Assembly: GCA_900018345.1 (NCBI GenBank)
Contig: FCNA01000087.1
Span: 1 to 64,000, forward strand
From: Clostridiales bacterium CHKCI006
GTDB taxonomy: Bacteria; Bacillota_I; Bacilli_A; Erysipelotrichales; Coprobacillaceae
Length of the DNA stretch: 64,000 nucleotides
Reading direction: 5' to 3'
The notes below the pieces were generated by a model. It was not told where the DNA came from. It was given only the letters and a program-made list of their open reading frames with translations, and made no database searches. Every line of letters starts with the position of its first letter. Positions within the stretch are counted from its first letter, which is position 1. The position numbers and the translations under genes are program-made. This document shows positions 3,091-29,957 of the stretch, piece by piece.

Positions 3091-4071
3091 TCATGAGTGT
3101 CTTCTGATATTGTCGCGAACATAGCTGGCTGGGCAATGACATTGGATCCTTTCATTGACTGGAGTGGTCATGATCCTGTCGTCCATATTGACCATGCCCC
3201 AATGATATAACGGATCCTTTCGGCAAACAGCATCAGTCACATCGATATAAAACCAGCCTCCTTTAAGGTAGATCAAATTCCAGCCATGACCATTGCCTTG
3301 ACGCTTGCCTGACACATAACGGCATGGGATGCCTAATTCCTTCATGATCATACACATGGCTAAGGAAAAGCCCATGCAGACAGCCTTGTTTTGTACAAGG
3401 GCACTATAAGCAGTATATTCTGTTCCGGTTCTTTCATAGGTCCAGTGTTCAACACAATAGCAAACGACCCCGTAAGCGCGTTTCCAGTCCTCCTGACCAT
3501 AGCGCCTGGCAAGCTTGGCAATCTCTCGTACCTTTTGCGCCATTTCTGTTTGGCGTCTGCGATATTCCTTATAGGAACAGGAATACGTCAGATCATAGAT
3601 AACGCCTAAATAAGAACAGTCATGCATACGCGTCGAATGAGTCCGATATTTTTCGAGATAGCCCTCTAATATTTCCGGATCCTTAAAAAAAGTATCGGCT
3701 GCACTGTCCAACGCCTGTCTACGTTCTTTTTTAAACACAACATAGATTGCTTTGCGATGCAGGCGAATGGCACGCAAAAAGGCTTGCCGAAGATCATCAC
3801 CATCTTCAATGATCTCCACAAAGGAAGTCATGACCTGGGTATACATCACTTCGATGCGAATTTTTTCCTTATTTCCCACGAGGAGCCTTTCATAGCAAAA
3901 ACGCTCCACGCTCAACATCAGCCGTGGCTCTGCTTCTGTGATTTGCGCCAAAAAGCGTTTTGTATCCAACACCCCTTTGGGTGTCGTCAACGTGATGATC
4001 GGACGACGCGCTTCGACCAATTCATGAACGGTGTAGTTCAAAGCTGCTTGTAAGTTCTGACAGTACATCAT
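3091..4071 (-). CDS. Transglutaminase-like (papain-fold) protein, last gene of unit A
   Basis: About 327 residues. The C-terminal third carries a transglutaminase-core pattern with Cys in 'AVCMGFSLAMCMIM', His in 'GNGHGWNLIYL' and Asp in 'FYIDVTDAVC', the Cys-His-Asp triad of the family. Bacterial members act as peptidases or cross-linking enzymes, often on the envelope. The N-terminal ~170 residues are charged and unassigned, and no export signal is seen. The GGAGGG ribosome site overlaps the end of the upstream gene, and ATG 4071 and 4068 are both possible. Its place at the end of a kinase-phosphatase-SEDS-PBP operon suggests an envelope or processing role, which is inference. Confidence 0.75.
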   Translation of the reverse strand: MMYCQNLQAALNYTVHELVEARRPIITLTTPKGVLDTKRFLAQITEAEPRLMLSVERFCYERLLVGNKEKIRIEVMYTQVMTSFVEIIEDGDDLRQAFLRAIRLHRKAIYVVFKKERRQALDSAADTFFKDPEILEGYLEKYRTHSTRMHDCSYLGVIYDLTYSCSYKEYRRRQTEMAQKVREIAKLARRYGQEDWKRAYGVVCYCVEHWTYERTGTEYTAYSALVQNKAVCMGFSLAMCMIMKELGIPCRYVSGKRQGNGHGWNLIYLKGGWFYIDVTDAVCRKDPLYHWGMVNMDDRIMTTPVNERIQCHCPASYVRDNIRRHS

Positions 4072-4078
4072 ATCCCTC

Positions 4079-5365
4079 CTACCATAACAAAGCAACCACG
4101 ATCAGCAGGATGACAAAACTACTGCCACCCAGATAGACTAGTGGATAAATATACTGTCTCTCTCTGATCAATCTTTTCCAACGCTGGGCATCGTTCTCAT
4201 CAGCTAAAGCTGTTTTCGCATTTCTCAAGAAAAGCGCTAAGAGGTATTTTTGCAGTGGACTGATGGGCATCTCACTGTTTTTTAAATGGTCCGGTGCTTT
4301 TGTTTTCCCGTCGATGTTTCTCTTTTCTTCAATGTCCCGTGATTTCTGCGGTATAAAAATTTTTGTTTTGATCTTTTCATCCACCACTTTCGTAGCGGAT
4401 ACGGCATTCAAACGATGATCGTGCTGCACGCATGCCGCTAATTCATCGAGACTGACTAATGCTCCGATACCATCCAGTCTTACATCAAGATCAAATCTTT
4501 TCCCATAGCTTAACAGTGCCTCCCCTAGATCCAAGGCATTGATAAAACGAAAATGATTCTTTCGCGATGGAAAATCCAGGTATTGTGCTTCATCAATGTT
4601 GAAAAGATGGATCTGACCATCATCACAAAAGACAAAATCCAGATCATAAATTCCCCAGATAGACAAGGCCTGAACTTCCTGAATGAGACGAATGAATTGT
4701 TCGGGTGTGGGGGAGGTGACCACTGCCCCGTGAAACTGTCTTGTCACCACTCCTACAGGCATCTTTTCCTGATTATAGATCAAGGCTAAAGGAAAAGCAT
4801 GCTGCGGGAAATGCTGAGAGACGTGAATAAGTGCCTGCAGTCTGTCGACTTCATGATAATATAAGCCCTGTGAATACAATTTGATCCTTAGCTCAGGAAA
4901 GATAGCCGCATCTTTTCTAAAAAAATGTCTTTGCCCATTCCAGTCAAAATACAATCTGCCCTGATCAGCGTACGGGTATCGTCGGGTATCCAGACCCTGC
5001 ACGCCAAATTGCCAAGACGTTAGATAAGGAAGACTCAAAGGTTGGATATTCTGAAAGATCACTTCGCCGGTAGAATGATTGACACCTTTTAAGACATAGA
5101 CAGGCTGTTGAATCTGTAACAGCGATACCGAAGCAATCAGGACGTTCAAATAAGATAAATTCGACACATAGACAGGTCCGTCCTGATGCGCACGTAAATA
5201 CGCTTCAACACTGTTTTGCTCGCAAGGGGCAATCGGACCTAAATGGGCCATGTAAGCACCCTTTAAACAGACTAGATGATCATTTTCAAGATAAGGCAGA
5301 ATACTGAAGAATAATGCTTCACTGTCGGGTAATAACGTCTGGTTTAAAACAAGGATCTCACGCAT
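4079..5365 (-). CDS. Membrane-anchored kinase-fold protein, probable pseudokinase
   Basis: The protein has 428 residues and one C-terminal membrane helix ('YPLVYLGGSSFVILLIVVAL'). It is a clear paralogue of the protein two genes upstream (6300-7622). Both share the block 'LRIKLY...HEVDRLQ', a hinge-like 'PVGVVTRQFHG' and a loop 'GIYDLDF...IDEAQYLDFP'. The lysine of RIKLY and the loop Asp remain, but the Asn of the catalytic loop is absent and the first Asp of the paralogue's 'IDLDSAQ' is Asn here. I infer a pseudokinase or scaffold. The ATG overlaps the upstream stop by 8 bases behind AAGGAGG, so translation is coupled. Confidence 0.65.
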   Translation of the reverse strand: MREILVLNQTLLPDSEALFFSILPYLENDHLVCLKGAYMAHLGPIAPCEQNSVEAYLRAHQDGPVYVSNLSYLNVLIASVSLLQIQQPVYVLKGVNHSTGEVIFQNIQPLSLPYLTSWQFGVQGLDTRRYPYADQGRLYFDWNGQRHFFRKDAAIFPELRIKLYSQGLYYHEVDRLQALIHVSQHFPQHAFPLALIYNQEKMPVGVVTRQFHGAVVTSPTPEQFIRLIQEVQALSIWGIYDLDFVFCDDGQIHLFNIDEAQYLDFPSRKNHFRFINALDLGEALLSYGKRFDLDVRLDGIGALVSLDELAACVQHDHRLNAVSATKVVDEKIKTKIFIPQKSRDIEEKRNIDGKTKAPDHLKNSEMPISPLQKYLLALFLRNAKTALADENDAQRWKRLIRERQYIYPLVYLGGSSFVILLIVVALLW

Positions 5366-6281
5366 TGGATGGTCCTCCTTTACTGATTGTCATTAATGGT
5401 AGTATTTGATCCTGTAACTGATCGATCCGTTGATCTGTTCTGAATTGATGACTCAGGCTCAGGATCCAAAGGATCAGATTGAGGATACAAAAGAAGATAA
5501 AAAGAAACGTCATCATATGATGGGGCTTTCCAGTTCGTCGATGGATGTCTTGTTCATGTAAGATAGGCGGTTGCGAAAGCTGGATCAAGATGGCGGAAAT
5601 GTCATCTGCTATCATATAATGGTGATCATCCACAAAAGTCTGGAATTCAGCATTGGTGTTTAAACCAAAGACTTCCTTTAATCCATGCGCATCATAAAGG
5701 GCCTCCTGGCCATTTAAATAGCGATCCGTAAAGCCGTCCGTTCCTAAAAGCAGGGCCTTCCACTCCTGGCAATGCACTCTTAAGACACGCATGCGCTCGA
5801 TAGTCTTTTTGGATGAAGCAGGATAGACCTCACCATAGGCATTCTGATCAGGATAGGACAAGATGACAGGACATGTCATTTCGCCGGTATTCGGAAGGCC
5901 AAAGATGGCTCCATCCCCACAATGGATCAACGTAATGTGTCCCTGATCGAGCCAGGCTGCCAGCAAAGTCGAGGCGTAATCATCCGGATGGTTTGATGGT
6001 CCCCCAGAGATAAGTTCCTGCGTGATGGTCTCGATCCATTCCAAAAACCGCACTTTGATCCAGTGATCATCGTGTCTATCCAGATCCTTGATCACTGAAG
6101 GCTCACTCAGCCGTTGGCCAATTTCCTGAACCAGGGTCTTAGCACCTAAAGCGGCATAAGGACTATGGGAAACGCCGTCGGCTAAGACAGCTACACGGTC
6201 TTGAATGAAAAGGGCGTCCTGACATTCCTGCTGATCGATCAGATGGCTTCTGCCCTTTTGCTTAACAGATAAGATACGCAT
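5358..6281 (-). CDS. PP2C-family serine/threonine phosphatase with C-terminal membrane anchor
   Basis: About 307 residues. The metal-binding motifs of the PPM/PP2C family are present in order: 'QECQD' near residue 20, 'VLADGVSHSP' (Asp35-Gly36), 'LIHCGDGAIFG', 'LLGTDGFTD' and 'ADDISAILIQL'. A hydrophobic segment near residue 265 ('MMTFLFIFFCILNLILWILS') anchors it, leaving the catalytic domain in the cytoplasm. It lies between two kinase-fold membrane proteins and beside a vWA protein, which is the composition of TerY-phosphorylation triads. Its likely job is to reverse the action of the neighbouring kinase. AAAGGAGC sits ten bases before ATG 6281; the upstream GTG is too close. Confidence 0.9.
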   Translation of the reverse strand: MRILSVKQKGRSHLIDQQECQDALFIQDRVAVLADGVSHSPYAALGAKTLVQEIGQRLSEPSVIKDLDRHDDHWIKVRFLEWIETITQELISGGPSNHPDDYASTLLAAWLDQGHITLIHCGDGAIFGLPNTGEMTCPVILSYPDQNAYGEVYPASSKKTIERMRVLRVHCQEWKALLLGTDGFTDRYLNGQEALYDAHGLKEVFGLNTNAEFQTFVDDHHYMIADDISAILIQLSQPPILHEQDIHRRTGKPHHMMTFLFIFFCILNLILWILSLSHQFRTDQRIDQLQDQILPLMTISKGGPSNA

Positions 6282-6299
6282 GCTTTTCACGCTCCTTTC

Positions 6300-7622
6300 T
6301 TACATGATTTTCCAGACAGCCACACACAGGATCGTTACTAGAAGTAATATTCCGCCTGCTAGCAGCGGCCAATGACGCTTGGGTGTGGAAACAGGTTCCT
6401 GTACAACCTCTCCTTCTAAAGCCTGCAGCTGTCGATATAAGGATAAGGGTTCTTTGTTTTCAAAAGCCAATCTGACTAGATCAGCCACACGAGCATTCTG
6501 TTTTTCCAGAAGAGCCATGTGGCTCTCAACCAAAGGCACTTCACAGCTGCCAAAGAAGGTCTCATCACTCTGATAGGTACAAATGAGTAAATAGGTGACC
6601 CAATACGATAATTCGATAGCGTTAAAGAAGATATCTGGCAAATAGTATTCCCATGGCAGGCAATCCAGGCCTTGTGCCGGATAAACCATGGCAGGATAAT
6701 CAAGATATTGTGCAGAATCCAGATCGATCAAATGCGCTATGCCGTTTTCTTCTTCACATAGGATGTTATGTGAAAAATCCTTAGGATAAATGCCGAAGAC
6801 AGACAGTTCGATCAGCTGCCTGATAATGGATCTCGCTAATGGAAGTGCCCTGGCTTTCTGATGCAGATCGGGAATATCCATTTCTTCACCTTCAAAGTGT
6901 TTCATCACAATCCCGACAGGCTGATGCGCATAGGTATAAACAAGCGCTAAAGGCATGGCGGAATCCTGAAAAGAGTGAGGGATCTGAACCATCTTTTCCA
7001 ACTTCTCGATCTCATAAGGATGCAGATCCCGAAGATAGAGCTTGATTCGTAAATGAGGACGCTCAGGGCAAAGAAATGTATAGCCCTCCACGCCGGCAGA
7101 GGTAGTTTGGGTATGGGGAACGATGAAGGTTTGTTTCCGACCCTCAAGCATGAAATAACATCTTTTACCTGTCATCCTGGAAAAAGTGATCCGGCTTTGA
7201 TTGTCCATAGAAGCGCACCAACTCTTCTTGTTTTGACTCAAGAGATGAACCATTGAATTCATCTCTTTGAACTGTGGCTTTTTTAAGGTCTGATTGATCT
7301 TATCAAAAATATAGATCCTGCCCTGAAACTTCAGCAGCAAGGCACTCGATAAGAGCATATGCATATATCCCGGATCGCTGATGTAGAGCGTTTCACAAGG
7401 ATGATGGCGCATGTAGGCCTCCAGGCTTTCTTCTGCACAGGTCTCATAAGCTAGATGATTAGCTCTGAGACTGTTAAGAAGCGCATCGTAGCGCCACCCG
7501 ATGCCTGCGATGTCCAGGACCTCCTGACAGTTCTTAAAGAAGACAAAGGTAAACCCTTGAAACATCTCAATGTGCTCAAAACCGACAACAAATGACGACT
7601 CTAAGATGAATAGTTTTTTCAT
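6300..7622 (-). CDS. Membrane-anchored protein-kinase-like protein
   Basis: The protein has 440 residues: an N-terminal ~180-residue module shared with its paralogue, a kinase-like domain (about 185-340) and a C-terminal membrane helix (about 418-438). Candidate active-site residues are Lys194 in 'LRIKLY', Glu204 in the next helix, Asp282 and Asn286 in 'PKDFSHNILC', and Asp300 in 'IDLDSAQYLD'. These correspond to the VAIK Lys, the helix-C Glu, HRD...N and DFG. 'CLPWEYYLPD' resembles an APE-like segment. Sequence is far from Hanks kinases, so activity is inferred. It sits directly upstream of PP2C and downstream of the vWA gene. Confidence 0.7.
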   Translation of the reverse strand: MKKLFILESSFVVGFEHIEMFQGFTFVFFKNCQEVLDIAGIGWRYDALLNSLRANHLAYETCAEESLEAYMRHHPCETLYISDPGYMHMLLSSALLLKFQGRIYIFDKINQTLKKPQFKEMNSMVHLLSQNKKSWCASMDNQSRITFSRMTGKRCYFMLEGRKQTFIVPHTQTTSAGVEGYTFLCPERPHLRIKLYLRDLHPYEIEKLEKMVQIPHSFQDSAMPLALVYTYAHQPVGIVMKHFEGEEMDIPDLHQKARALPLARSIIRQLIELSVFGIYPKDFSHNILCEEENGIAHLIDLDSAQYLDYPAMVYPAQGLDCLPWEYYLPDIFFNAIELSYWVTYLLICTYQSDETFFGSCEVPLVESHMALLEKQNARVADLVRLAFENKEPLSLYRQLQALEGEVVQEPVSTPKRHWPLLAGGILLLVTILCVAVWKIM

Positions 7623-7628
7623 GCGACC

Positions 7629-8411
7629 TCACCCCTCACGATTTTGACTGAAGAAGAACATCATATTGGCAATGAGTACTTCGGAAAGATAACGGCCATA
7701 GGCTTCACGATCCTGTTTATGCGGTCTGATGACCTGTCCAGACATCTCTTTGGTCGCTGCAGCTTCAGTACTGGAAGCCTGACGCATTGCTCTAATACAG
7801 CGGGATACCTGTGATAAGGTCTTAGGGCCATCCAGAGCCAGACGATATCCGCCAAAATCCAGACCATTTTGGACATCGGTACGAACACATTCAATGATGA
7901 TCTTTGCATGATTGACCAGATCATCACTGAGCTTGCGAATGATCTGCTGATAGATTGGCGGATTTTCTGTCGTCAAGGCATCCGAAATGACAAAGTAGAA
8001 AGGAACTGTACAGATCTGCCCGCTAAGATCACAGGCGCTTTTGACCCGGCTTAAGAGTTGATCAGCGGCTTTGATCGAAGTCGCCAGTGGCGATTTCCCA
8101 TAACATTTTTCCGGCAGAGAAGTCAGCCACTGCTCAATGTCAAAAGCATGCAGATCACCTAGATAGACAACCTCACTTTGTCCGTTATAGATCAAAATGA
8201 TCACCAGTGTAAAGACCCGTCGATTGATTCCAAGCATCTGAGTCGTGATGGCTTGAACAACCTGCTCCGCTTTCTTCTGATAGAGATGCATGGAACCAGA
8301 AAAATCTAAGAGAATACTGATGGGGGTGCGCGGTGGTGTTGCTAAACCGGACCTGCTTTGAGCAATCGTATCCAGATAAGTCTCGATCATTGTTTCATTG
8401 TAGACATGCAT
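7629..8411 (-). CDS. von Willebrand factor A protein, TerY-like
   Basis: The protein has 260 residues. The MIDAS metal site is intact: 'ILLDFSGSM' (Asp36, Ser38, Ser40), Thr111 in 'GKSPLATSI' and Asp144 in 'VISDALTTENP'. The spacing fits the short cytosolic TerY class. Known TerY proteins are encoded beside a PP2C phosphatase and a kinase and act as scaffolds in stress signalling; the same three partners lie here in a row. No signal peptide is seen. AAGGAGG precedes the ATG. I regard the vWA call as secure and the TerY-like role as a context inference. Confidence 0.85.
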   Translation of the reverse strand: MHVYNETMIETYLDTIAQSRSGLATPPRTPISILLDFSGSMHLYQKKAEQVVQAITTQMLGINRRVFTLVIILIYNGQSEVVYLGDLHAFDIEQWLTSLPEKCYGKSPLATSIKAADQLLSRVKSACDLSGQICTVPFYFVISDALTTENPPIYQQIIRKLSDDLVNHAKIIIECVRTDVQNGLDFGGYRLALDGPKTLSQVSRCIRAMRQASSTEAAATKEMSGQVIRPHKQDREAYGRYLSEVLIANMMFFFSQNREG

Positions 8412-8426
8412 GAATCTTACCTCCTT

Positions 8427-9893
8427 TTAAGTAGTGATGACTAGATCACTATAAGCCGCTAAACCAAACATGGCACCATAGGAAATGGAAGCCGAAATCC
8501 CATTGCTCAACGCTGGATTAACGACGCCTGTCAGTGGAATGATACTGAAAGTACCGCCTACATTTAAGCAAACGGCAACCATGATTCCTAAACAGCCCAG
8601 CAAACTGAAGACCTGATTTTGTCTTCTTTCCTCTTTGAACTTCTGTAATACGTGAAAAAGAAGCAACACTTCTAAGCCAAGGACCTCCATCATCAAAATA
8701 AAGCCATTCATCTGTCCCAGCCAGGCAACGACAAGATCGCTATGACTGGCAGTGATATTCTGCAAAATATCCAGCTTTGGATTTCCAAACAAGCCGCCAT
8801 TCACAAAGAAAGCCACTATGGCATGCACGCTCTGATAACCATAATTTGAAGCATCCAAAAAGCTTCCGCCTGCAGTCAAACTGGAAAGAAGACTTCCACC
8901 TAACCAGCCAGATAATCGCTCCGCGACCTCAGCGGAGAGTTGTGGCAGCAGCTTTAAGACCAGCAGGGCCAAGAGGATCAGCGTAATGCTTAATAACAGA
9001 GCATGATTTTGAACCAGCACCGCGACCATAAACAATGCCCCTAACTGCACCAGTAGGCCAATGTCTCTGATCAGATAGGCATAAAGAAAACCAATCAGGG
9101 TCATGCTCAAGATCAGGATCTGTTCACCACGTTCCCCTAAATGATGTCCGGCAGGAACCACCAGGATGAATAAATACAAGATCTTAACGATTTCAGAGGG
9201 TTGAAACTGGACACCGCCAATCGTGACCCAGTTATACGCACCATTGATCTTGGAGGCAAGCAGGATATTCATACCAATTAAAAGGAGGATGCCCAGCGCC
9301 GCGATGCGTCGCAGCCATTGATGCCATTCAGCTCTACGCGTAACCTGAATGACTATTCTGATCAGAATAGAGGAAGCCAAATAGCCTATGACGCCTAAAT
9401 AAGGATGACTGGACGCCTGGATATGAAAGCTAAGCAAAATGACGAAAATACAATCCGCCAGGGCCATATGATCGGCCTTCAGCCCATTCATGACGATCAC
9501 ATACAGCATCAGCATCCCAAATAAAGCTGGCTGACCAAGTTCAACCATTCTCAGGATCAAGAATGCGGATGTCAGTAATAAGGGAAGGTAATGATGATCT
9601 AACAGGGGATATCTTTCTGGCAATCCAAAAGAAATAGGCACTGGCTTGCCCTGCCATTGGATCGTCCTGTGTTTGATATCATAAAAAGCGCTGCCCTGCA
9701 TACGACTGGTTTGTCCGGAACGATCCACGATATCGTGAATACCCAAACGACCCACGGTTGTTTCTAAGCCCTGTGACCCATCTAATCGATCGGTCTTTAA
9801 ACCAAAAGTCCAGTCTTTTCTTTCTTTCATCAAATGAAGCATACACCCCATCAGCAACAGTAAGATCACACTTTCCAAAAAATGAAGCATCAT
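8427..9893 (-). CDS. SEDS peptidoglycan polymerase (FtsW/RodA/SpoVE family) with FHA-like loop
   Basis: The protein has about 488 residues and about ten membrane helices. The family signature is clear: 'YNWVTIGGVQFQPSEIVK', 'VAWLGQMNGFILMMEVLGL' and 'IIPLTGVVNPALSNGISA'. SEDS proteins polymerise lipid II glycan and work with a class B PBP, which is the gene just upstream (ATG overlaps the PBP stop). Between helix 1 and the main domain lie about 65 soluble residues. In them 'VGRLGIHDIV' and 'GQTSRMQGSAFYD' resemble the GR...DI...SR pattern of an FHA phosphothreonine-binding domain. Starts at 9893 or 9890 both fit the GGAGGT site. Confidence 0.88.
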   Translation of the reverse strand: MMLHFLESVILLLLMGCMLHLMKERKDWTFGLKTDRLDGSQGLETTVGRLGIHDIVDRSGQTSRMQGSAFYDIKHRTIQWQGKPVPISFGLPERYPLLDHHYLPLLLTSAFLILRMVELGQPALFGMLMLYVIVMNGLKADHMALADCIFVILLSFHIQASSHPYLGVIGYLASSILIRIVIQVTRRAEWHQWLRRIAALGILLLIGMNILLASKINGAYNWVTIGGVQFQPSEIVKILYLFILVVPAGHHLGERGEQILILSMTLIGFLYAYLIRDIGLLVQLGALFMVAVLVQNHALLLSITLILLALLVLKLLPQLSAEVAERLSGWLGGSLLSSLTAGGSFLDASNYGYQSVHAIVAFFVNGGLFGNPKLDILQNITASHSDLVVAWLGQMNGFILMMEVLGLEVLLLFHVLQKFKEERRQNQVFSLLGCLGIMVAVCLNVGGTFSIIPLTGVVNPALSNGISASISYGAMFGLAAYSDLVITT

Positions 9894-11146
9894 TCCACCT
9901 CCCTGACGTAACAATTGACAAATTCAGTCGTGATATCTAAGGCTCGCTGGCTGGAACCGCCTCCCGCAAGCATCGTGACAATGACGATCTCCGGATCATC
10001 GAGACAGCAGACAAACCAGGCATGATCTGTGCCGTCACCCACTTCCGCCGTGCCTGTCTTGCCCCAGCCATCCAAAGCATCTCCATACCAGACATGCATG
10101 CCTTCACGCAGTGCTTCCTGGATCCATCTGGCACTGCCAAGACTCATGATCTCATCTTCTTCCAGTGTCTGTCCCATATTTAAGGTCAGCGGATGGTAGA
10201 TTCCATCATTGGCAATGGCACCATAGAAACAAGCCAACGCTGCAGGCGAAATGAGATCTTTGCCCTGTCCATCCATGGCCCACATCCAGTCCTCAGAAGC
10301 ATCCACAAAACCAGAAGCAATCTCGCAGCCGGCAATTACCGTGTTATCCAATAAATGAAATCTGGCGATGTCCTTTTCCCATTGGCTGGGTGTCAGATAC
10401 GTCTTGCCAAAATAACTAATACCACAATTACAGCTTTCGTATAATGCCTGCTTTAAGTTCACTGAGCCATGCGCAGTTAAACAGGAGACATCCCCATATT
10501 CATCATCTTTATTTCTTATCGTGTTCACTGAGCCATGCGCAGTTAAACAGGAGACATCCCCCTCACGACCGGTACAGTTATAGGTGCCTGAAGCAATGCC
10601 TGCTTCCAACAGACAGGCAATGGTTGCTGTCTTGAAAGTGGATCCAGGCGGAAAGCAGGTGGTCGCTTTATTCAGATAAGCACCTTCTTCGACCTCTGTG
10701 TTATTGAGGACATCGACAGAAGGAGTACTCACCATACAGTAAATCTCGCCTGTTCGAAAATCTGCGGCCAGGATCGTCCCATTCAGCCCAGATTGCTTCA
10801 ACAACTGATAAGCCCCTTTTTGCCAGGAAAGATCGATAGTCAGGGTCTCATCACTCTCAATATCATTTAAAACAGCTCCGGGAACACTGCCATAGGTATC
10901 TCCCAAAACGTGAAAAGTAGCCAAACGCGTCCATTCATCATCGCTATAGCCACCATCGTACAAGTATTCCCCATAACGATCGGATATCTTAACTGACTGA
11001 TAAAGCGCATTGTCAAGATAAATTTCCTGATACGACTGCATTTTGTCATAGTGCAGAAACGGAATACACATCAAGAAGGCCATACCGGATAATGCCACAC
11101 CAATCATCAGATAAATGAATAGACGCATACGTTTGATCATGGACAT
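9890..11146 (-). CDS. Class B penicillin-binding protein (PbpA-like transpeptidase), first gene of unit A
   Basis: The protein has 418 residues: a short cytoplasmic tail, one membrane helix (about 10-30) and a transpeptidase domain. The three active-site motifs are present: SxxK as Ser169-Thr-Phe-Lys172 ('PPGSTFKTATIA'), SxN as Ser238-Cys-Asn240 ('YESCNCGIS') and KTG in 'WGKTGTAEVG'. It cross-links peptidoglycan outside the membrane with the adjacent SEDS partner. It is shorter than cell-division PBPs. Between residues 197 and 230 the 13-residue stretch GDVSCLTAHGSVN occurs twice, from a 39-bp duplication. It is transcribed from promoter A. Confidence 0.9.
   Translation of the reverse strand: MSMIKRMRLFIYLMIGVALSGMAFLMCIPFLHYDKMQSYQEIYLDNALYQSVKISDRYGEYLYDGGYSDDEWTRLATFHVLGDTYGSVPGAVLNDIESDETLTIDLSWQKGAYQLLKQSGLNGTILAADFRTGEIYCMVSTPSVDVLNNTEVEEGAYLNKATTCFPPGSTFKTATIACLLEAGIASGTYNCTGREGDVSCLTAHGSVNTIRNKDDEYGDVSCLTAHGSVNLKQALYESCNCGISYFGKTYLTPSQWEKDIARFHLLDNTVIAGCEIASGFVDASEDWMWAMDGQGKDLISPAALACFYGAIANDGIYHPLTLNMGQTLEEDEIMSLGSARWIQEALREGMHVWYGDALDGWGKTGTAEVGDGTDHAWFVCCLDDPEIVIVTMLAGGGSSQRALDITTEFVNCYVREVE
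10457..10561. repeat. 39-bp direct duplication inside the PBP gene
   Basis: Bases 10457-10495 and 10523-10561 are identical (39 of 39), separated by 27 bases. The 66-bp period keeps the frame and adds 22 residues just before the SxN active-site segment. Confidence 0.95.
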
Positions 11147-11169
11147 AAGACCCTCTCCTTTCTATTTCT

Positions 11170-11221
11170 ATCTTAACAAAACGCCTTACTTCTTTCTTGC
11201 TTCAATCCGAAAGAAAAGTTT
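11170..11221 (-). promoter_or_regulatory. Promoter A: shared 52-bp element upstream of the PBP operon
   Basis: Read on the minus strand, AAACTTTT starts at 11221, followed by three bases and TCGGATT, then an AAGAA tract, and the hexamer TAAGAT at 11175-11170. No TTGACA-like -35 box stands at 16-18 bases from the hexamer. The same arrangement at the same spacing occurs at three other units in this window, which points to an activator-dependent promoter. The PBP ATG lies 23 bases downstream. Confidence 0.85.
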
Positions 11222-11278
11222 CCATCATCAAATCGTGCTAATCTAGTCACCTGCTTCTTCAAATCGGCAATCGTCATC

Positions 11279-11323
11279 AAAAAAACTCCTAAGCAGCATT
11301 GCATTTCATATGCTGCTTAAGAG
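11279..11323 (-). terminator. Intrinsic terminator of unit B
   Basis: AAGCAGCAT (11291-11299) pairs with ATGCTGCTT (11310-11318), extended by flanking CTC/GAG pairs, and is followed on the minus strand by seven Ts. It separates the conjugation unit from the PBP unit. Confidence 0.85.
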
Positions 11324-11376
11324 GGATTCTTTCCTGTCATCGTTTCCTCGCCTGATCTTTAACTTGCCCTATTCCA

Positions 11377-12030: not shown

Positions 12031-12603
12031 TTAAACGATCACCAGACCAAAAGCATCTGTCTGATGCTGCTTATCACGAATGGCGATCGATCCTTCATGA
12101 TGTCCGCCAATGACGACATAAATGACTTCCATCAACAGATCATCGACCATCTTATGATCGAGGGCATTGAAGTCAGGACTGCCGCTGGGGCTCGTACGAT
12201 AGAGCCCCACCAAAGACAGATGCTCCTGCAGCCTCTTTTTTCGGATTCGTTTCACATCAGCACCTTCAAAATAACGCACACTCCCTTGTTGACTGCTGGC
12301 ACATTCCAGATAGTCAGTGATCCTGATTGTGTACGTCCTACCATCTCCCTCTTTCTTGCCTAAAAAATACCCTGCCTGAAAGGCTGGTTTCTTGTCCGCT
12401 GGGACGACTTGATCGATGATCCGGCGATCAATGGAAACACTGTATGGACTTAAAGGATAATCCGCTGTCAATTCGGAAAAACATACTTCACAAACAAAAC
12501 GAACCAGATCATTATGTTTAATCACATATCCTTCTTTTGCGTGGCAATGGCATTGACTGCATTCCTGATGCTCGTTTAATTGAGCCCTTGTGGCCAGTTT
12601 CAT
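12031..12603 (-). CDS. Zinc module fused to a degenerate JAB/MPN domain
   Basis: About 190 residues. Residues 13-42 carry Cys15, Cys18, Cys20, Cys38 and Cys41 in the pattern shared with the next protein. The C-terminal ~120 residues resemble an MPN/JAB fold: 'AGYFLG', a beta strand, then 'GLYRTSPSGSPDFNALD' (133-149). In active JAMM proteases the last stretch would hold HxH and Ser/Asp; here both His are replaced (Arg and Ser), so a non-catalytic, scaffold-like MPN is likely. ATG 12603 follows AAGGAGG and overlaps the end of the E1 gene by 86 bases. Confidence 0.6.
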   Translation of the reverse strand: MKLATRAQLNEHQECSQCHCHAKEGYVIKHNDLVRFVCEVCFSELTADYPLSPYSVSIDRRIIDQVVPADKKPAFQAGYFLGKKEGDGRTYTIRITDYLECASSQQGSVRYFEGADVKRIRKKRLQEHLSLVGLYRTSPSGSPDFNALDHKMVDDLLMEVIYVVIGGHHEGSIAIRDKQHQTDAFGLVIV

Positions 12604-14215
12604 CGTTGACGCCTCCTTCAAAGGTAATCTCGACCAGATACTCTCCCTTTTCCCCTTCGACATAATAAATATGACGATCAGGCAAGCGATCAAAGATCGC
12701 ATCCACCCCGGAATTCATGGAAACTTCAATCTTCGCAAGCGCATTGGCATAATCATAAGCGATCGGAATATTCAAGCTCCATTCCAGATTCAAACGATAG
12801 CTGTAAATATTTTCTTTAAAGAGAATGTTCAGTTTTTCCCACAAATACCGTTTAGGTAAAGAGCGGTCAAAACGGATCTTCGCAATCGGTTGCTGCGGAT
12901 CAAAGATCTCATACAGTTCACTTTGGTGTGGCTGACTATATTTAAACGTTCGCAAAGCGACCTTATCTCGCGCATATCCATGACCAAGTGCATTTAAGAT
13001 ATATTTATAGACGGTCTTATCATCGCTGATTTGTCCAAGCAAGACCTTTAACGCCAAATCAATGCTCATCCCGGCAATCTGACTGGAAAAGCTCATGACC
13101 TGAGCCTGGGTCTCTTCGGCAATGTCGGCGCAGCTTCGCCTTTCTTCTAAACGCTGACGATAGCCATTGCCCCAGATATATTCCAGATCGACAACGGCAT
13201 TTTCTGGAAAGAAAAGGATATTGCCGGTAAAATCCCCATCTACGATCCCGGTCCCACAGGTAATATGCGGGATGTGGTACAATTTGCAGCCGCGATCGAC
13301 ATACTGCCGGATGGCCGCATTATCCACGGGGGATAAGATCAGATCGAAATCCTCAAAAAACCCCCAGCCAAGCGCACAGATATCCGCATGGATCCCGGTA
13401 ACTTCTAAGGGAAAATAACACTTCTCGCTCAATGCCTTCGCTAAGGCCAGCGCCTTATGTTTTTCCTGGGCATGTTCGTCGATCATACTTGAACGCGGTA
13501 AGTTCCAGTAATGATAATCATCCTTATCCACAATGCATAAATGTCCGATTCCAGCCTGCATAGCATACTCGGAAAGCAGATTACCAATCGTGCCGGCCCC
13601 AATGATCAGCACTTTCTTATCAGATAATTCAGTAACCGAATGAAGAAATCGCTTGTCGAGCTCTCTTTTCTGGACATCACTGTAATGGCGCTGTGTCCGA
13701 TAAGTCACTTTTGTTGGCGCTTCCTTTCTTTCAATTCTTTTACCAAAAAGATGATCGAGCGCCTGATCATCAGCAATGCTGACCTGACAAGCGTAATAAT
13801 GAAAGTCCATGTCCTTAAAGACCGCATTCCAGGTTCCATAGCGACAAGAGACGACCATATAGAAACTATTGTCGCGAGACTGCTGCATCATCTCCACATC
13901 CTGACTGGACCAAAATGCATCGAACTGCGCATGGGAATGTACATTTCCAACGATATGATAATGAGGATAATGTTTCTTGACATATTTGACTGCATTCATC
14001 AAATAATCCGTCGTAAATTCAAAAGTACTTCTGGACCCTTTACGATCTTCATAGTAGAGATCATGCAGATGGACTGTATACGTCCCTGTGATCTCATCTT
14101 TGGAAATATTGCCAATAAAGATCCCGCCGCATTCATGGCTGGGATCCTGATGGATCAGAAGATTGATCTTTTCAAGAACCTGCCGATCCATTAATACATT
14201 GACCTGATGACTCAT
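12518..14215 (-). CDS. JAB (JAMM) isopeptidase-E1 (ThiF) fusion protein
   Basis: The protein has 565 residues. The N-terminal JAB domain has a complete JAMM motif: Glu28 ('HECGGIFIG'), His93, His95, Ser103 and Asp106 in 'NVHSHAQFDAFWSSQD'. From about 198 an E1/ThiF Rossmann domain follows, with GAGTIG (206-211), Asp230, Arg241 in 'NLPRSSM' and a candidate catalytic Cys362 in 'RRSCADIAE'. Such fusions adenylate and transfer a ubiquitin-like tag and also remove it. The E2-like gene lies directly upstream, completing an E1-E2-JAB module. The last ~120 residues are unassigned. It has a strong AAAGGAG site. Confidence 0.9.
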   Translation of the reverse strand: MSHQVNVLMDRQVLEKINLLIHQDPSHECGGIFIGNISKDEITGTYTVHLHDLYYEDRKGSRSTFEFTTDYLMNAVKYVKKHYPHYHIVGNVHSHAQFDAFWSSQDVEMMQQSRDNSFYMVVSCRYGTWNAVFKDMDFHYYACQVSIADDQALDHLFGKRIERKEAPTKVTYRTQRHYSDVQKRELDKRFLHSVTELSDKKVLIIGAGTIGNLLSEYAMQAGIGHLCIVDKDDYHYWNLPRSSMIDEHAQEKHKALALAKALSEKCYFPLEVTGIHADICALGWGFFEDFDLILSPVDNAAIRQYVDRGCKLYHIPHITCGTGIVDGDFTGNILFFPENAVVDLEYIWGNGYRQRLEERRSCADIAEETQAQVMSFSSQIAGMSIDLALKVLLGQISDDKTVYKYILNALGHGYARDKVALRTFKYSQPHQSELYEIFDPQQPIAKIRFDRSLPKRYLWEKLNILFKENIYSYRLNLEWSLNIPIAYDYANALAKIEVSMNSGVDAIFDRLPDRHIYYVEGEKGEYLVEITFEGGVNDETGHKGSIKRASGMQSMPLPRKRRICD

Positions 14216-14228: not shown

Positions 14229-14822
14229 TTACATATCTCGAGTCAAATACGTGATCTTAGCACACCAGCGTTTATTGATATAACTTTCCAGCTTACGGCG
14301 GTCACTGATCATGGTCTTAGGCTTTAACGCTTTGATGACAGCTTGCTGCTGGGTCTTGGCATTCTTTAAAGCCTCCGTACTGACACCCATGATACCGGAA
14401 GCGCAATGACCAATATTCACAGAATCTCTAGTCACGTTTTGCAAAGACAGTGTTTCAACAATATTGGCGATAAAATCTGTCGCTCTTTCACGTTTGCTGT
14501 TATCCCAGCAAGGATGCCCATCGTTATAAACATGCGGATGAGCAAACTGCTTGCCCAACTGTTCCTGATAATAGTGACACTGCGCCTGTTGGACCGGGGC
14601 AAAACAGATGTCTTTTTTACGTACATAGAAGGTAGAGCGTGGAAACTGCACAAAGGCTTTTCCCTTTCGTCGGCTCTTATAAAGCGGATAACCATCGAAC
14701 TCCATGATGATATGATTGCCATCACTTGAATAACTGTTCTTGACTTTCAAGTTCGAACCCATGACATCATTCACAATGCTTGCTGCAATATTGGCTAGAT
14801 CCATCGCATAATCTCTCATCAT
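14229..14822 (-). CDS. E2 ubiquitin-conjugating-like protein
   Basis: The protein has 197 residues. The central segment 'HPHVYNDGHPCWDNSK' (95-110) followed by a helix 'ATDFIANIVETLSLQ' reproduces the HPN...G..C pattern and trailing helix of E2 folds, giving Cys105 as the predicted thioester residue. Bacterial E2-like proteins pass a ubiquitin-like tag from the adjacent E1. An N-terminal helix and beta strands ('HIIMEFDGYPLYKS') fit the core fold. The C-terminal ~70 basic residues are extra. It is preceded by AAAGGAG and followed by the JAB-E1 gene after 13 bases. Transfer activity is inferred from residues and context. Confidence 0.75.
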   Translation of the reverse strand: MMRDYAMDLANIAASIVNDVMGSNLKVKNSYSSDGNHIIMEFDGYPLYKSRRKGKAFVQFPRSTFYVRKKDICFAPVQQAQCHYYQEQLGKQFAHPHVYNDGHPCWDNSKRERATDFIANIVETLSLQNVTRDSVNIGHCASGIMGVSTEALKNAKTQQQAVIKALKPKTMISDRRKLESYINKRWCAKITYLTRDM

Positions 14823-14837: not shown

Positions 14838-15176
14838 TTAAGCGACAAGCGAACTGACACTGACCACAAAGGTAGGGGTCTCACCCTCGGCTTCAATACG
14901 CGCCAACTCTTCTTTGATGGCCGGCTGATTACATAATGGGGTCTTCCAGTCAGCACGAATGCTGTCTCCTTCGATCGTAATCAGTTCAAACGCACTCCGA
15001 TCTTCATCGATATGCCCGTCCATCAATTGACCAATGGCCCGTTCGCTTGAGAAGATCTGACTGGCGGCAGTCGCATCCTCCTGATAAAACGCACGAATCG
15101 TATGGATCGGGGTATCTGAGATATTGATCTCTCTAGTCATAGTCATTCCTGTTACCGTTTCAATCATCGCTTTCAT
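14838..15176 (-). CDS. 112-residue protein, tandem copy 1 (candidate tag/substrate)
   Basis: I do not recognise the family. The 112-residue protein is acidic, starts with a likely beta strand ('MIETVTGMTMTREINI'), has a central helix ('EDATAASQIFSSERAIGQL') and more beta ('AFELITIEGDSIRADW'), and ends with '...PTFVVSVSSLVA'. There is no Gly-Gly terminus. It is almost identical to the next gene (109 of 112 residues). Its position just before the E2 gene makes it a candidate ubiquitin-like tag, target or adaptor, but this rests on context. It has AAGGAGG and no membrane or export segment. Confidence 0.7.
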   Translation of the reverse strand: MKAMIETVTGMTMTREINISDTPIHTIRAFYQEDATAASQIFSSERAIGQLMDGHIDEDRSAFELITIEGDSIRADWKTPLCNQPAIKEELARIEAEGETPTFVVSVSSLVA

Positions 15177-15193
15177 ATTTCATTTCCTCCTTT

Positions 15194-15532
15194 TTAAGCA
15201 ACTAGCGCACTGACACTGACCACAAAAGTAGGGGTCCTTCCTTCGGCCTCAATACGCGCCAACTCTTCCTTAATGGCCGGCTGATTACATAATGGGATCT
15301 TCCAGTCAGCACGAATGCTGTCTCCTTCGATCGTGATCAGTTCAAACGCACTCCGATCTTCATCGATATGCCCATCCATCAATTGACCAATGGCCCGTTC
15401 GCTTGAGAAGATCTGACTGGCGGCAGTCGCATCCTCCTGATAAAACGCACGAATCGTATGGATAGGGGTATCTGAGATATTGATTTCTCTAGTCATGGTC
15501 ATTCCTGTTACTGTTTCAATCATCGCTTTCAT
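15194..15532 (-). CDS. 112-residue protein, tandem copy 2
   Basis: This near-duplicate of the preceding protein differs at three residues only: Ile for Thr in 'ADWKIPL', Arg for Glu in 'EGRTPTF' and Ala for Ser in 'VSALVA'. Two of the three changes lie in the C-terminal 15 residues, the part a conjugation enzyme would handle. The ATG overlaps the stop of the 84-residue gene in an ATGA arrangement, with AAGGAGG upstream, so the two are translationally coupled. The high identity at both DNA and protein level indicates recent duplication or gene conversion. Confidence 0.7.
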   Translation of the reverse strand: MKAMIETVTGMTMTREINISDTPIHTIRAFYQEDATAASQIFSSERAIGQLMDGHIDEDRSAFELITIEGDSIRADWKIPLCNQPAIKEELARIEAEGRTPTFVVSVSALVA

Positions 15533-15783
15533 AACAAATTTTCCTCCTTCAAAACATAGTGAATATAGAGCGGAATTTTCTCGATCGTCTTATCTAAACG
15601 AGGATTCTTATTCCATTTTTTATAAGCCAGCAGTTCTCTTTCGGATTTTCCTGCACTGAAGTACTGATAAACTCCTTTAGAAAAAGGCTGCGTGAAAAGA
15701 TAGAAGCGTCCCCGATCTGTCTTAAGATAGAAGTTTAACTTTTTCTCTTCTTTAACGATAGTAATTGTTTTCCGCATGTTCAT
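15529..15783 (-). CDS. Small basic protein, first gene of unit B
   Basis: The protein has 84 residues, is rich in Lys, Arg and Tyr, and has no membrane helix. It begins with a likely beta hairpin ('KTITIVKEEKKLNFYLKTD') and contains 'FSAGKSERELLAYKKWNKN', probably a basic helix. I do not recognise a family; a DNA- or partner-binding role is possible. The GGGAGG site is 3 bases from the ATG and promoter B starts 17 bases upstream, giving a very short leader. Its stop overlaps the next ATG. Confidence 0.6.
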   Translation of the reverse strand: MNMRKTITIVKEEKKLNFYLKTDRGRFYLFTQPFSKGVYQYFSAGKSERELLAYKKWNKNPRLDKTIEKIPLYIHYVLKEENLL

Positions 15784-17880: not shown

Positions 17881-17932
17881 GTTATACTAAAAATTGGGCC
17901 CGGCTTCTTCTTTGAATCCGACCAAAAAGTTT
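17881..17932 (-). promoter_or_regulatory. Promoter C: shared 52-bp element upstream of the ClpP unit
   Basis: AAACTTTT begins at 17932 on the minus strand, with GG before it as in promoters A and D. Three bases and TCGGATT follow, and the hexamer TATAAC stands at 17886-17881, exactly the same distance as in the other copies. Confidence 0.85.
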
Positions 17933-17939: not shown

Positions 17940-17969
17940 AAAAAAAGTGAAGAATCAGCCATTCTTCAC
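17940..17969 (-). terminator. Intrinsic terminator just upstream of promoter C
   Basis: GTGAAGAAT (17947-17955) pairs with ATTCTTCAC (17961-17969), followed by seven Ts on the minus strand. It backs up the terminator at 18051-18083 and insulates promoter C from the WYL gene. Confidence 0.8.
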
Positions 17970-18050
17970 TCCCATACCCCACCGATCATGCAGGTCGGCA
18001 TACATCTAGTCTTATTGTTTTTTTATGCTTCTTAGAATCTCTCAAATACC

Positions 18051-18083
18051 AAAAAAGACGCATCTTATCGTCATAGATGCGTC
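18051..18083 (-). terminator. Intrinsic terminator after the WYL gene
   Basis: GACGCATCT (18057-18065) pairs with AGATGCGTC (18075-18083), followed on the minus strand by six Ts. Confidence 0.85.
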
Positions 18084-18091
18084 AATGTTCG

Positions 18092-19726
18092 TTATACGCC
18101 TGCAAAGGAAGCTTTTGTCTTTTCAATTTCGAGCTGTTCCTTGAGACGCTGTTGATATTCTTGATAAATGTTGCTGTCGCGATCTAAAATTCGGATCACT
18201 GGTCCATAGCTTAATAAACGCGTCACCAGTTCCATCCAGTCATTATCCTGATAATAGATGGTCAGTGTATAGACCTTCTGATTTCTGTCATATCGGCATC
18301 TTTTCTTCCACGGCGATAATTCATAGAGGATGCGGTCAGGTGTATTCTTTTCTTCACTCAATTCAATGGTCAAAGAAGCCTGATGTTCTCCACGATAAGC
18401 TTCCAAAGCTGCATAAGCGCTGTCGTAAGCGAAGGTCTCTTCTTTCAAAACTTGACACGCTTCGATCCTAGCCAGATTCATCAAAGTGATGGTCTGCCGT
18501 TTTTCCGAATAGAAATAACTTCTGAACACATTATCTCTTTGATCATATTCGATCATGATCGGATAAAAAACGCCGCTGAATTCCGGTTGATGTCTAGGAT
18601 TATACTGAATAAAGACTTTTTGGTGATGTTCGATGGCCCCCAGCAACAAATTCATGAAGTTCCTTTCCTGCTGTTTTACCTGATCACTGACGGCAAAGCG
18701 ATCGGTCTGAATGATAGAAGCCAATAATAACGGCTTGTCATCAGCTAAGGTCTGCCGGATGCTTTGAATCTCTTCTTCATTCAGGAATAAAGTCATTTTG
18801 GGATCTGACAAAATCGTCAACAACCAGCGGCATTCCAGCTTCGATAAAGGCAGGATCGCTGTATTGAAAGATCTTTCCTCAGTCTGATATTTCTTTAAAT
18901 AGGCGACAGCCCACCTACCATTTGGCGATGGATCGGGTTTGGCCTGCCACATGCCATACTGGTTTTTGCCTGTCCAAAAGCCCTTGATCTCCATCACGCC
19001 TTTTTTCATAAAGGCCCCTGATTGAATCAATTCCCAGATCGTATCGTGCAATAACGCTTTACTTTGCAAGCCCAGTTGGGCTTCATATGCCTTGATCACC
19101 TCATCCATGATCATCTGAATCTCTTCTTCCAAGAAAGCTTCCCGATCATCACTGTAAATGGTCATCAGGACCGCTCCGATCACCGCATAATAAATACTGA
19201 AGTACTCATTAAAGAGCTGCATATGCGCCTTGGATGGACGGCTTTGATAGTGGCATGTTGGCGGAATGGACCATGGCATCGATGGTGAAAACGAAGTGTC
19301 ATGCTGTCTTAATCCGTTTTCATTGACATCGACCATTTGGGCCAGATCCTCGGCAATATCAAAGTTCAGCCCTTTCAGATCGATCAGCCGTTTATAAAAA
19401 CTGCGCAGCCAGGGACGGAGTTCCCGATCATCCGTTACTTTCACTTTAAATCCAATGGCATCCGGATAAAGCTGAATCTCTCCCATCCTTTTTTCTCTAG
19501 CCAGACGTTCTCGAATAAACCCCTCTTTTTCAAAGTCACAGGCGATCTTCATGTCGATTGCATACAACGGCACTTTTTGTTTGGCATTGCCGATGGGTTC
19601 ATAGGTAGTGGAAGCTCCCCAGCAATATTTCAATGCCTCTCTCACATTCTGAAGATCTGCCTGAACGATTGCCTGATCGATGCCTTCCAGCTTGCTGACG
19701 ATCTCGACATGGTCGATAAATTCCAA
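18092..19726 (-). pseudogene. Double-WYL regulator, C-terminal part after a frameshift
   Basis: This 544-codon frame is the continuation of the protein that starts at 20724. Its beginning is not a real start: reading upstream in the same frame gives 'REYVSFYEPFTRSYSHLRL', the missing strands of the first WYL domain. A second WYL domain lies near residues 375-445 ('VFIQYNPRHQPEFSGVFYP', 'QTITLMNLARIEA'). WYL proteins are ligand-sensing transcription factors, very often regulators of defence loci. With the N-terminal part it would make a protein of about 877 residues. It could be a real mutation, a sequencing error or recoding. Confidence 0.75.
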
Positions 19727-20724
19727 ACGCAGATGCGAATAACTGCGCGTGAAAGGTTCATAAAATGAAACATATTCCCGACCGCTGTAGCACTCGTGCG
19801 GATTTCTAAAGGGAAACAGATCAGTGACCCGCTCTCACCTGTCACCGCATGCCGGTAATCGATCTTGCACCAGTCTTGCTTTTCAATGGCCTCGAGCAGG
19901 TCAAGTAAACTATAATCATTTAAAGACTGCATATAATAGGCGTGTTTGAAACGAAAAGCACTCTTGGATGTTGAAGAGAATCTACCTAACAAAATACTGC
20001 CCACCGTTCCAAGGCTGGCATATTTAGAAAAGAAATCCAGTGCGTCAATGAAATGCGCTTGAAAGTTTGGGTCAACACGTTCACCATTTTTCAACAGCTG
20101 ATCGAGTGTCTTCTCCTTTAACAGCCAGCGATGGGTCGCTTTCTTTCTATGCTCGGAAATATCTGAAATAAATCCCATTTCCTTTAGCTCTTTGAGTTTC
20201 TTATTGATCGTATTATTTTCGCCTTCAAAAAGCGGTGCGCCGTCAGGATAAAAGCATAGTAGTTCTGAAGAAGTCAGTGGATTTCCTCTTTCCAGATCAT
20301 CTTCAAAGCGAAGATAACCGTCGGATAAAGTATCGTTGATCTCTAATGATTCCACCCCTCTCAAAAGCCTCACCTTCTTGCTTAAAGCAAAGATGGTATT
20401 AAAGAAACATTTGGGATCACGCTCATTGTAACGACAAAAACGATAAATACGATGAAACGGATTGACCGGCATGGACCAGGAATCCGCACTCATAAAGAAA
20501 ACCTGTTTTTTATCCACCGACCATTCAAAATAATCCTTTAAGAGATTGTTCAAACGATTCCAGTCATCATTAATGGTTTTGGTGGTTGGCTTTAGTTCCC
20601 CTTTATCATTTTCACTCTGCAATTCCATATATGATTTAAAACCATAAGTATAATAATCACGTATCACGTTTTTAAATTTACTGTCGAAAGACCCTGCCCC
20701 GATCAGTTCATCATGCTTTGCCAT
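19642..20724 (-). pseudogene. Double-WYL regulator, N-terminal part before a frameshift
   Basis: The authentic start (ATG 20724, GGAGGTGAG upstream) and residues 1 to about 300 belong to a WYL regulator: a winged-helix-like region around 'NTINKKLKELKEMGFISD', then the start of WYL domain 1 ('WCKIDYRHAVTGE'). At about 19825-19835 the frame must shift by one base to keep the domain ('RVTDLFPFRNPHECYSGREY'). Without the shift the protein ends in about 45 unrelated residues. The distance 20724-18092 is one base short of a whole number of codons, as expected for a single deletion. Confidence 0.75.
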
Positions 20725-29283: not shown

Positions 29284-29294
29284 TCTTTCTCACC

Positions 29295-29762
29295 TTACCC
29301 TTCTAACCATTTCAACAATTCTTCCTCAGTCTGTTCCACCTCTCGTTCTTCCTCATGCATGGAAGACGGAACCTCAACACGCTTTGAGAGAGATGAATGC
29401 TGAACCGTTTGATAATCTTCAAGCGTGATGTTCGCAAATGAAGCCGCCTTCTTTTCCTCTTTGAGTGTGAGGGTCAATGAATCATATTGATTTTGTATCG
29501 CCATCCGGTAAGCTCCCAGGATCAGCCGTTCAAAGCCACCTCGAACCTCCGCATTGATGGGATGAACGATATCCTCAAAAGTCTTAAACTTAGTCAAGCG
29601 GCTGGGCATCGCTAAAAACAGCTGTCCTTCCTTTTCGAATGTCTTGTTGGCAATGATCTTGATATCATGAATGGCCAGCATATCATCAATCGTCAGATTG
29701 GCGACGCCCTTCATTCTAGATCCATTTTCAGTACGTTTGATAGAAATAACTGTGATTAACAT
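29295..29762 (-). CDS. SpoVG-family protein, first gene of unit D
   Basis: The protein has 155 residues. Residues 1-90 match the SpoVG pattern closely: 'RMKGVANLTIDDMLAIHDIK', 'LFLAMPSRL', 'FEDIVHPINAEVRGGFE'. SpoVG proteins are small DNA- and RNA-binding regulators in Bacillota. The chromosomal form is about 95 residues; this one has an extra acidic ~60-residue tail ending 'EEELLKWLEG', so it is a paralogue. It is encoded 11 bases before the giant NTPase with a strong AAAGGAGG site, suggesting it works with or regulates that protein. Confidence 0.88.
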   Translation of the reverse strand: MLITVISIKRTENGSRMKGVANLTIDDMLAIHDIKIIANKTFEKEGQLFLAMPSRLTKFKTFEDIVHPINAEVRGGFERLILGAYRMAIQNQYDSLTLTLKEEKKAASFANITLEDYQTVQHSSLSKRVEVPSSMHEEEREVEQTEEELLKWLEG

Positions 29763-29905
29763 GTTGACTTCCTCCTTTCCATCTCATTCATCTTCTATTT
29801 TATCACAGCACTTCCTAAAAAAATACATCTTTCGCAAACTCAGCACTCTTCTTGCATGTATCATAGGATCGGTATTCAGACAGAAAAATGGGTTCTTCAT
29901 ATTTC

Positions 29906-29957
29906 ATTTTATCGATGAGCTCACTAAAAATCATCTCGATATCCGAAATAAAAGTTT
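29906..29957 (-). promoter_or_regulatory. Promoter D: shared element upstream of the SpoVG-giant NTPase unit
   Basis: On the minus strand GGAAACTTTT (AAACTTTT from 29957), three bases, TCGGAT, and a hexamer TAAAAT at 29911-29906, in register with promoters A-C. The AAGAA tract between is not kept. It lies 143 bases upstream of the SpoVG-like ATG. A short open stretch of about 40 codons (in-frame ATG near 29932, stop near 29815) overlaps it and may be a remnant or leader peptide. Confidence 0.7.

Follow-up and report, generated by a model that had tools for sequence, protein, structure and literature searches.

The window analysed here, the first 64 kb of an 81-kb contig (FCNA01000087.1, our C56) of Clostridiales bacterium CHKCI006 (genome of 3.33 Mb in 164 contigs), contains an island of ~27 kb, or ~0.8% of the genome, in which four neighbouring transcription units are each preceded by the same short promoter element. 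The island comprises ~22 genes between positions 29762 and 3091, all on the minus strand, and every gene named below is an intact long minus-strand open reading frame (ORF), with the WYL gene as the sole exception. Unit 1 encodes a SpoVG-like protein, a giant NTPase of AAA/STAND type that ends in a HEPN-type RNxSAH motif, and a WYL regulator. Unit 2 encodes a Zn-finger protein, ClpP and a VirD4-like ATPase, and runs on into unit 3, the ubiquitin-like (Ubl) conjugation unit, with p84, two 112-aa proteins, an E2-like protein, a JAB-E1 fusion, an inactive MPN protein and a Zn-finger membrane protein. Unit 4, for envelope synthesis and phospho-signalling, encodes a penicillin-binding protein (PBP), a SEDS protein, a vWA protein, a kinase, a PP2C phosphatase, a pseudokinase and a transglutaminase-like protein. 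Our preferred reading, put forward tentatively, is that of a chromosomal accessory island whose four units form one regulon of separable modules with a Ubl-proteolysis core, and which would serve an inducible stress or anti-phage response.

The shared promoter element and its candidate regulator

The element, read in the minus-strand sense as GGAAACTTTT-N3-TCGGATT, precedes the PBP gene, p84, the Zn-finger/ClpP unit and SpoVG, always in one orientation. It was first met as a repeat common to three intergenic stretches, and the fourth copy was added by a pattern search. With at most two mismatches allowed, the 27-kb island holds four copies versus 0.1 expected (first-order Markov control, 60 simulations, maximum 1). 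The whole genome has 17 matches at this threshold and 19 to the reversed-pattern control, so that the total does not exceed the control; four of the 17 lie in the island, as do three of the four genomic matches with at most one mismatch. As judged by eye, three of the elements are followed after 27-28 nt by a -10-like hexamer (TAAGAT, TATCAT or TATAAC), and the fourth plausibly so. There is no copy upstream of the paralogous envelope operon of the same genome or at the related loci of relatives, and the seven single matches in IMG/VR are about what chance would give.

Strong hairpins with T runs precede two of the elements, and terminators part unit 1 from unit 2 and unit 3 from unit 4 (Table 1). 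No terminator was found between the VirD4-like ATPase and p84 genes, and the ClpP and conjugation genes therefore probably belong to a single long operon that also has a promoter inside it. The presence of the element before all four units, its concentration in the island and, in three or four copies, its constant spacing to a -10-like hexamer make joint regulation of the four units likely. The shared promoter elements of the initial annotation were thus borne out and are island-specific. We suggest that an activator-type element of 18-20 bp, placed ~40-58 bp upstream of the start site, drives the four units. WYL proteins with winged helix-turn-helix (HTH) domains, such as PafBC, are activators; given this and the activator-like position of the element, the twin-WYL protein encoded in the unit of the giant NTPase may be its likeliest regulator. 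Just after the fourth element, positions 29815-29935 hold a 39-codon ORF, possibly a remnant, whose sequence by eye looks like the beginning of an AbiEi-type antitoxin.

Conjugation and proteolysis genes

Families were assigned by Pfam and NCBIfam profile searches and PADLOC models, with 20 island proteins in the Pfam scan. The JAB-E1 fusion stands as annotated: it has both an E1-type adenylation domain (GAGTIG, NLPR), as in Ubl operons, and a JAMM peptidase with an intact metal motif (E28, H93, H95, S103 and D106; H93-S-H95, S103xxD106), and its PDB matches include MoeB, SUMO E1 and Cap2 chains. The E2-like protein is a putative E2, so called for its motif HPHVYNDGHPCW; profile, sequence and fold searches gave no match to the protein. 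For the inactive MPN protein (MPN223), the assignment is supported by a readable but destroyed metal motif together with weak matches to the JAB domain (E 0.014) and to the PADLOC JAB model (0.02). The Zn fingers of this protein and of the 144-aa membrane protein are homologous (E 2e-7). As for the Ubl itself, the tandem 112-aa proteins are the best candidates. Their Foldseek matches are mostly beta-grasp domains (PI3K RBD, FERM F1, CRAF RBD, SUMO-3), none of them significant (E >=2, from a poor model), and are no more than suggestive.

The neighbouring genes for ClpP and a soluble-size VirD4-like ATPase were likewise borne out. This ClpP shares 37% identity with a second ClpP on contig C42. 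The ATPase retains Walker A and has DDFG in place of the DEFANIG of Walker B; it thus departs from VirD4-type type IV coupling proteins (T4CPs) both in Walker B and in having no N-terminal membrane segment visible in its sequence. One other ClpP-linked copy was found, in a third genus (G017), where ClpP and a VirD4-like ATPase stand in matching order, split by an IS200/605-type element and beside a type I restriction locus. The two ATPases share DD-x-G, whereas conjugative coupling proteins with a readable Walker B have DE(F/A)AN(I/V). ClpP may have a new unfoldase partner in the DDxG VirD4-like ATPase, a candidate that adjoins it in two genera. VirD4 matches in phage records were discarded as ordinary T4CPs, and the five examined were without ClpP.

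Taken together, the Ubl-ClpP-ATPase core is the novel part of the island and plausibly a tag-and-degrade machine. In such a machine JAB-E1 would activate the Ubl, for which the 112-aa proteins are the foremost candidates, the E2-like protein would transfer it, and the JAMM domain would trim or remove it. Adaptors in this scheme could be the inactive MPN protein and the Zn-finger proteins, one of which is membrane-bound. Pairing of MPN+ with MPN- subunits is known from Rpn11/Rpn8, and by analogy the JAMM domain of JAB-E1 and the inactive MPN may form such a pair. The VirD4-like ATPase would unfold tagged proteins into its dedicated ClpP. Bacterial Ubl pathways have so far had no clear tie to ATP-dependent proteolysis; with ClpP and an ATPase directly ahead of the E1, E2 and JAB genes, and probably co-transcribed with them, such a tie becomes testable in one operon.

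Similar gene sets have been described. Class 6e operons combine a JAB domain fused N-terminally to E1, a UBC-like or E2/RWD-like protein, a metal-binding protein and tandem Ubls, and the ties of prokaryotic Ubl operons to ATP-dependent proteolysis were called less clear (Iyer et al. 2006, PMC1779556). The island likewise has, in one operon, a JAB-E1 fusion, a separate, putatively UBC-like protein, a metal-binding protein and tandem Ubl candidates. It differs in the H-x-H...Cys motif of the E2-like protein, the added inactive MPN and the co-operonic ClpP-ATPase pair, and its Ubl candidates are separate tandem genes without a C-terminal Gly rather than a polyUbl. Also described are vWA systems that have Ubl conjugation and FtsH, triads of kinase, PP2C and vWA proteins, and effectors of JAB and Clp-like type (Kaur et al. 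2020, PMC7159879). Compared with their vWA-MoxR/FtsH ternary and GAP1-N2 conflict systems, the island shares a vWA protein, a Ubl cassette, an AAA protease and a kinase-PP2C-vWA triad, whereas it uses ClpP with a VirD4-like ATPase and has SEDS/PBP genes attached; no MoxR, FtsH or effector-associated domain (EAD) was noticed. Each pairing of modules thus has a precedent in these two groups of systems, and the literature searched yielded none for the full set or for Ubl conjugation combined with both ClpP and a VirD4-like ATPase.

Separate occurrence of the modules and competing explanations

Two further five-gene operons have the PBP, SEDS, vWA, kinase and PP2C genes in the order of the island, one on contig C113 of this genome and one in a different genus (G009:C166). 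These two operons are 30-46% identical to that of the island and stand without conjugation genes; operons of this kind, with their kinase family, were found in only 2 of the 316 genomes of the order. All three loci have the vWA, kinase and PP2C genes adjacent and in the same order, as in TerY-P triads, and all three relatives keep the DxSxS motif of the vWA protein. The triad of the initial annotation is therefore present, with the correction that there are two kinase-like proteins, of which the one at 4079-5365 is a pseudokinase; the SEDS, PBP and transglutaminase-like assignments were confirmed. No TerB, TerD, TerF or other Ter family for tellurite resistance appeared in the Pfam scans of the island. 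In the actinobacterial PknA/PknB-PstP-RodA-PbpA operon, a kinase, a PP2C phosphatase, a SEDS protein and a PBP are likewise encoded together; unit 4 differs in having a vWA protein instead of FHA proteins, and a kinase of another family with a C-terminal membrane anchor. Its SEDS/PBP pair, controlled by the vWA, kinase and PP2C proteins, could adjust wall synthesis as a parallel output of the regulon.

A second parallel output may come from the giant protein, which had been described as an NTPase with a HEPN-like end and whose P-loop (GPSRAGKS), Walker B (LLYDEF) and C-terminal RNRSAH motifs are all kept in three homologues (G022, G032 and G007). The R-x4-6-H pattern of HEPN nucleases is present as RNRSAH in its C-terminal helical domain and as RNxSAH in the homologues, and we suspect an RNA-cutting NTPase that would act as a threat-activated RNase. 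Large STAND/AAA NTPases with HEPN RNase ends occur in defence islands. The giant resembles these in its AAA P-loop core, C-terminal RNxxAH and sporadic, stand-alone occurrence, and differs in its size (2,600-2,800 residues) and in the lack of a dedicated PADLOC or Pfam family. The G022 homologue, from another genus, stands alone, the surrounding 27 kb being without the other units; those of G032 and G007 lie on short contigs. The N-terminal part of the G022 homologue (2615 aa; L011:6039-13886, G022:C39) has repeated segments that by eye resemble OST-HTH/LOTUS modules. SpoVG, in the same unit, was recovered as well, though at 72 bits it is under the curated NCBIfam cutoff of 108. The WYL call also stands, with the 360- and 544-aa ORFs merged into one gene: the WYL core runs on across the junction near 19770 in the other frame, and a reading as two separate WYL proteins was rejected. 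The frameshift may be an assembly error, a mutation or programmed.

Several observations weigh against our preferred reading. One is the INDEPENDENCE of the units: two other copies of the envelope operon, homologues of the giant NTPase in three genomes and a ClpP-ATPase pair in one genome all stand apart from the remaining units, and the conjugation unit was found nowhere else in the searches given below. By the refuting condition of the initial annotation, relatives with the units independent of each other, an obligate single system is thus not supported, and the one system that it proposed is partly supported, as one regulon. Decay marks the G017 ClpP-ATPase pair, which has an in-frame stop, a Walker A Lys changed to Asn and an IS insertion. 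In this assembly the gene of the WYL regulator carries a frameshift, and the distance from element to gene is larger in the SpoVG unit than in the three others. The 112-aa protein has no C-terminal Gly, and single-sequence models were poor (predicted local distance difference test, pLDDT, 46 for the E2-like and 44 for the 112-aa protein), with no significant fold match. Finally, the links of the conjugation unit rest on one genome: no relative of JAB-E1 beyond generic ThiF was found among 43 genomes of the family, 392 of the phylum and 395 of the class, and none in plasmids, phages or IMG/VR. Two motif-directed scans of 84,980 GTDB genomes also gave none; their queries were artificial alignments, in which altered rows added to a single real one steered the choice of pattern, and only relatives keeping the queried motifs were therefore detectable. 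A plasmid search with the vWA, kinase, E2, MPN and 112-aa proteins was negative, and an E2 match in G497 was a false positive, the protein being DnaG.

Much of this would also be expected if unrelated accessory modules, namely the defence-type giant, a Ubl system, a decaying ClpP-ATPase pair and a duplicated wall-signalling operon, had piled up in the island and been captured secondarily by one island or host regulator, so that they are co-induced and work independently. We regard this as the strongest competitor, though a somewhat doubtful one. It accounts for the three units found alone in relatives, for the second envelope operon without the element and for the signs of decay, namely the WYL frameshift, the pseudokinase and, in the PBP, a 22-aa (66-bp) in-frame tandem duplication (10457-10561) just before the SCN motif that is absent from both paralogues. 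It fits less well with an element that precedes every unit and has few matches in the rest of the genome, or with the absence of a terminator between the ClpP-ATPase and conjugation genes. At the opposite extreme, the whole could be a ubiquitin-proteasome analogue, with E1, E2, Ubl and an MPN+/MPN- pair coupled to ClpP and a VirD4-derived ATPase in one inducible regulon with the phospho-controlled wall operon and the giant HEPN NTPase; we consider this stronger proposal unlikely.

Narrower explanations fare worse. That the conjugation unit is an antiphage system like Bil or the Cap2 branch of the cyclic oligonucleotide-based antiphage signalling system (CBASS), with the ClpP, ATPase, envelope and giant genes as mere neighbours, appears improbable to us. 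Its E1 domain does match the PADLOC E1-E2 and JAB models and the NCBIfam 6A-MBL cap2 family, and the N-terminal JAB-E1 fusion is the 6e architecture (Iyer 2006, PMC1779556), but the scores are far under the curated cutoffs (65 versus 320 bits), the neighbours share the promoter element, and no CD-NTase, metallo-beta-lactamase or Bil-type genes are present, the CD-NTase of type II CBASS being absent from the Pfam scan. An E1, an E2-like protein, a JAMM peptidase and a Ubl candidate are common to the island, BilABCD and CBASS Cap2/Cap3, with weak similarity; in the island, however, JAB and E1 are fused instead of encoded by separate genes, and the HPHV motif precedes the Cys rather than following the CEHH order of BilB (PMC11354881). 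We give still less credence to the ClpP and VirD4-like genes being remnants of a conjugative element and not a protease-unfoldase pair. An integrative and conjugative element (ICE) with its own T4CP does lie 8-34 kb away, and the nearest sequence matches of the ATPase are T4CPs; yet the protein has no membrane anchor, its Walker B shows the same kind of change as the only other ClpP-linked copy, and the GC content of the island (0.443) is near that of other host loci (mostly 0.39-0.45), that of the ICE being 0.366.

We therefore retain the reading of one regulon of separable modules. The modules also circulate separately, and the role that seems most likely for their combination is a joint, inducible stress or anti-phage response, possibly a programme of protein tagging and envelope remodelling. 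The island-specific element opens a way to study how defence-type modules and those for proteolysis and wall synthesis come under common control.

Feature coordinates and genomic surroundings

Table 1. Elements, terminators and genes of the island (window positions), with the G017 relative of the ClpP-ATPase pair
Feature	Position	Strand	Remarks
Element copy, SpoVG-giant unit	29939..29957	-	1 mismatch to GGAAACTTTTNNNTCGGATT; ~180 bp before SpoVG; weakest case
SpoVG-like, 155 aa	29295..29762	-	NCBIfam SpoVG 3.3e-20
Giant AAA/STAND-type NTPase, 2830 aa	20791..29283	-	Pfam ATPase_2 9e-6; C-terminal HEPN-type RNRSAH
Winged-HTH-like + twin-WYL regulator	18092..20724	-	One gene read as two ORFs; WYL 5e-9
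Terminator hairpin, end of SpoVG-giant-WYL unit	18045..18095	-	z -4.4
Second terminator hairpin, directly before ClpP-unit element	17943..17973	-	
Element copy, Zn-finger/ClpP/ATPase unit	17914..17932	-	Exact
Cysteine-rich (Zn-finger-like) protein, 64 aa	17668..17862	-	Overlaps ClpP start
Accessory ClpP	17097..17705	-	Pfam ClpP 5e-41; Ser-His-Asp triad intact
VirD4/TraG-like ATPase, ~429 aa	15851..17140	-	T4SS-DNA_transf 8e-25; no membrane anchor
Element copy, p84/conjugation unit	15834..15852	-	Exact core; overlaps ATPase stop codon; no preceding terminator
p84, small protein	15529..15783	-	No family match
Two 112-aa proteins, tandem, 97% identical	14838..15532 (14838-15176, 15194-15532)	-	Ubl candidates; no C-terminal GG
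E2-like protein	14229..14822	-	Motif HPHVYNDGHPCW; candidate catalytic Cys105
JAB-E1 fusion	12518..14215	-	ThiF 2.5e-26; N-terminal Prok-JAB 1.7e-8
Zn-finger + inactive MPN	12031..12612	-	Metal ligands replaced: GLYRTSPSGSPDFNALD
Zn-finger + transmembrane segment, 144 aa	11582..12016	-	
Small membrane protein, 88 aa	11377..11643	-	
Terminator hairpin, end of conjugation unit	11277..11325	-	-21.5 kcal/mol, z -4.8
Element copy, PBP-SEDS unit	11203..11221	-	Exact to 20-mer
Class-B-like PBP	9890..11146	-	Transpeptidase 1e-24; STFK/SCN/KTG motifs
SEDS (FtsW/RodA) protein	8427..9914	-	FTSW/RODA 5e-26
vWA protein	7629..8411	-	Weak vWA match 0.007; DxSxS intact
Kinase-like protein, membrane-anchored	6300..7622	-	KDxxxN and DxDS catalytic motifs retained
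PP2C phosphatase, membrane-anchored	5358..6290	-	PP2C 5e-24
Second kinase-like protein (pseudokinase)	4079..5365	-	Catalytic Asn and metal-binding Asp lost
Transglutaminase-like protein	3091..4095	-	Transglutaminase core 1.4e-13
Possible terminator past envelope unit	2985..3000	-	Weak, z -1.2
G017 ClpP-ATPase pair	L070:9112-13078 (G017:C8)		

No Rfam elements were found in the island. The neighbouring ICE occupies positions 38348-64000 and extends further, with two integrases, a DnaN-like clamp, a T4CP, a TraG/VirB4-like ATPase and a DNA methylase. We considered the island as cargo of this ICE and ruled it out on the differing GC content and the location of the integrases outside the island. 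In the AT-rich stretch adjoining the ICE, positions 34564-35421 encode an HTH domain fused to DUF3990 (Pfam 2.5e-29).

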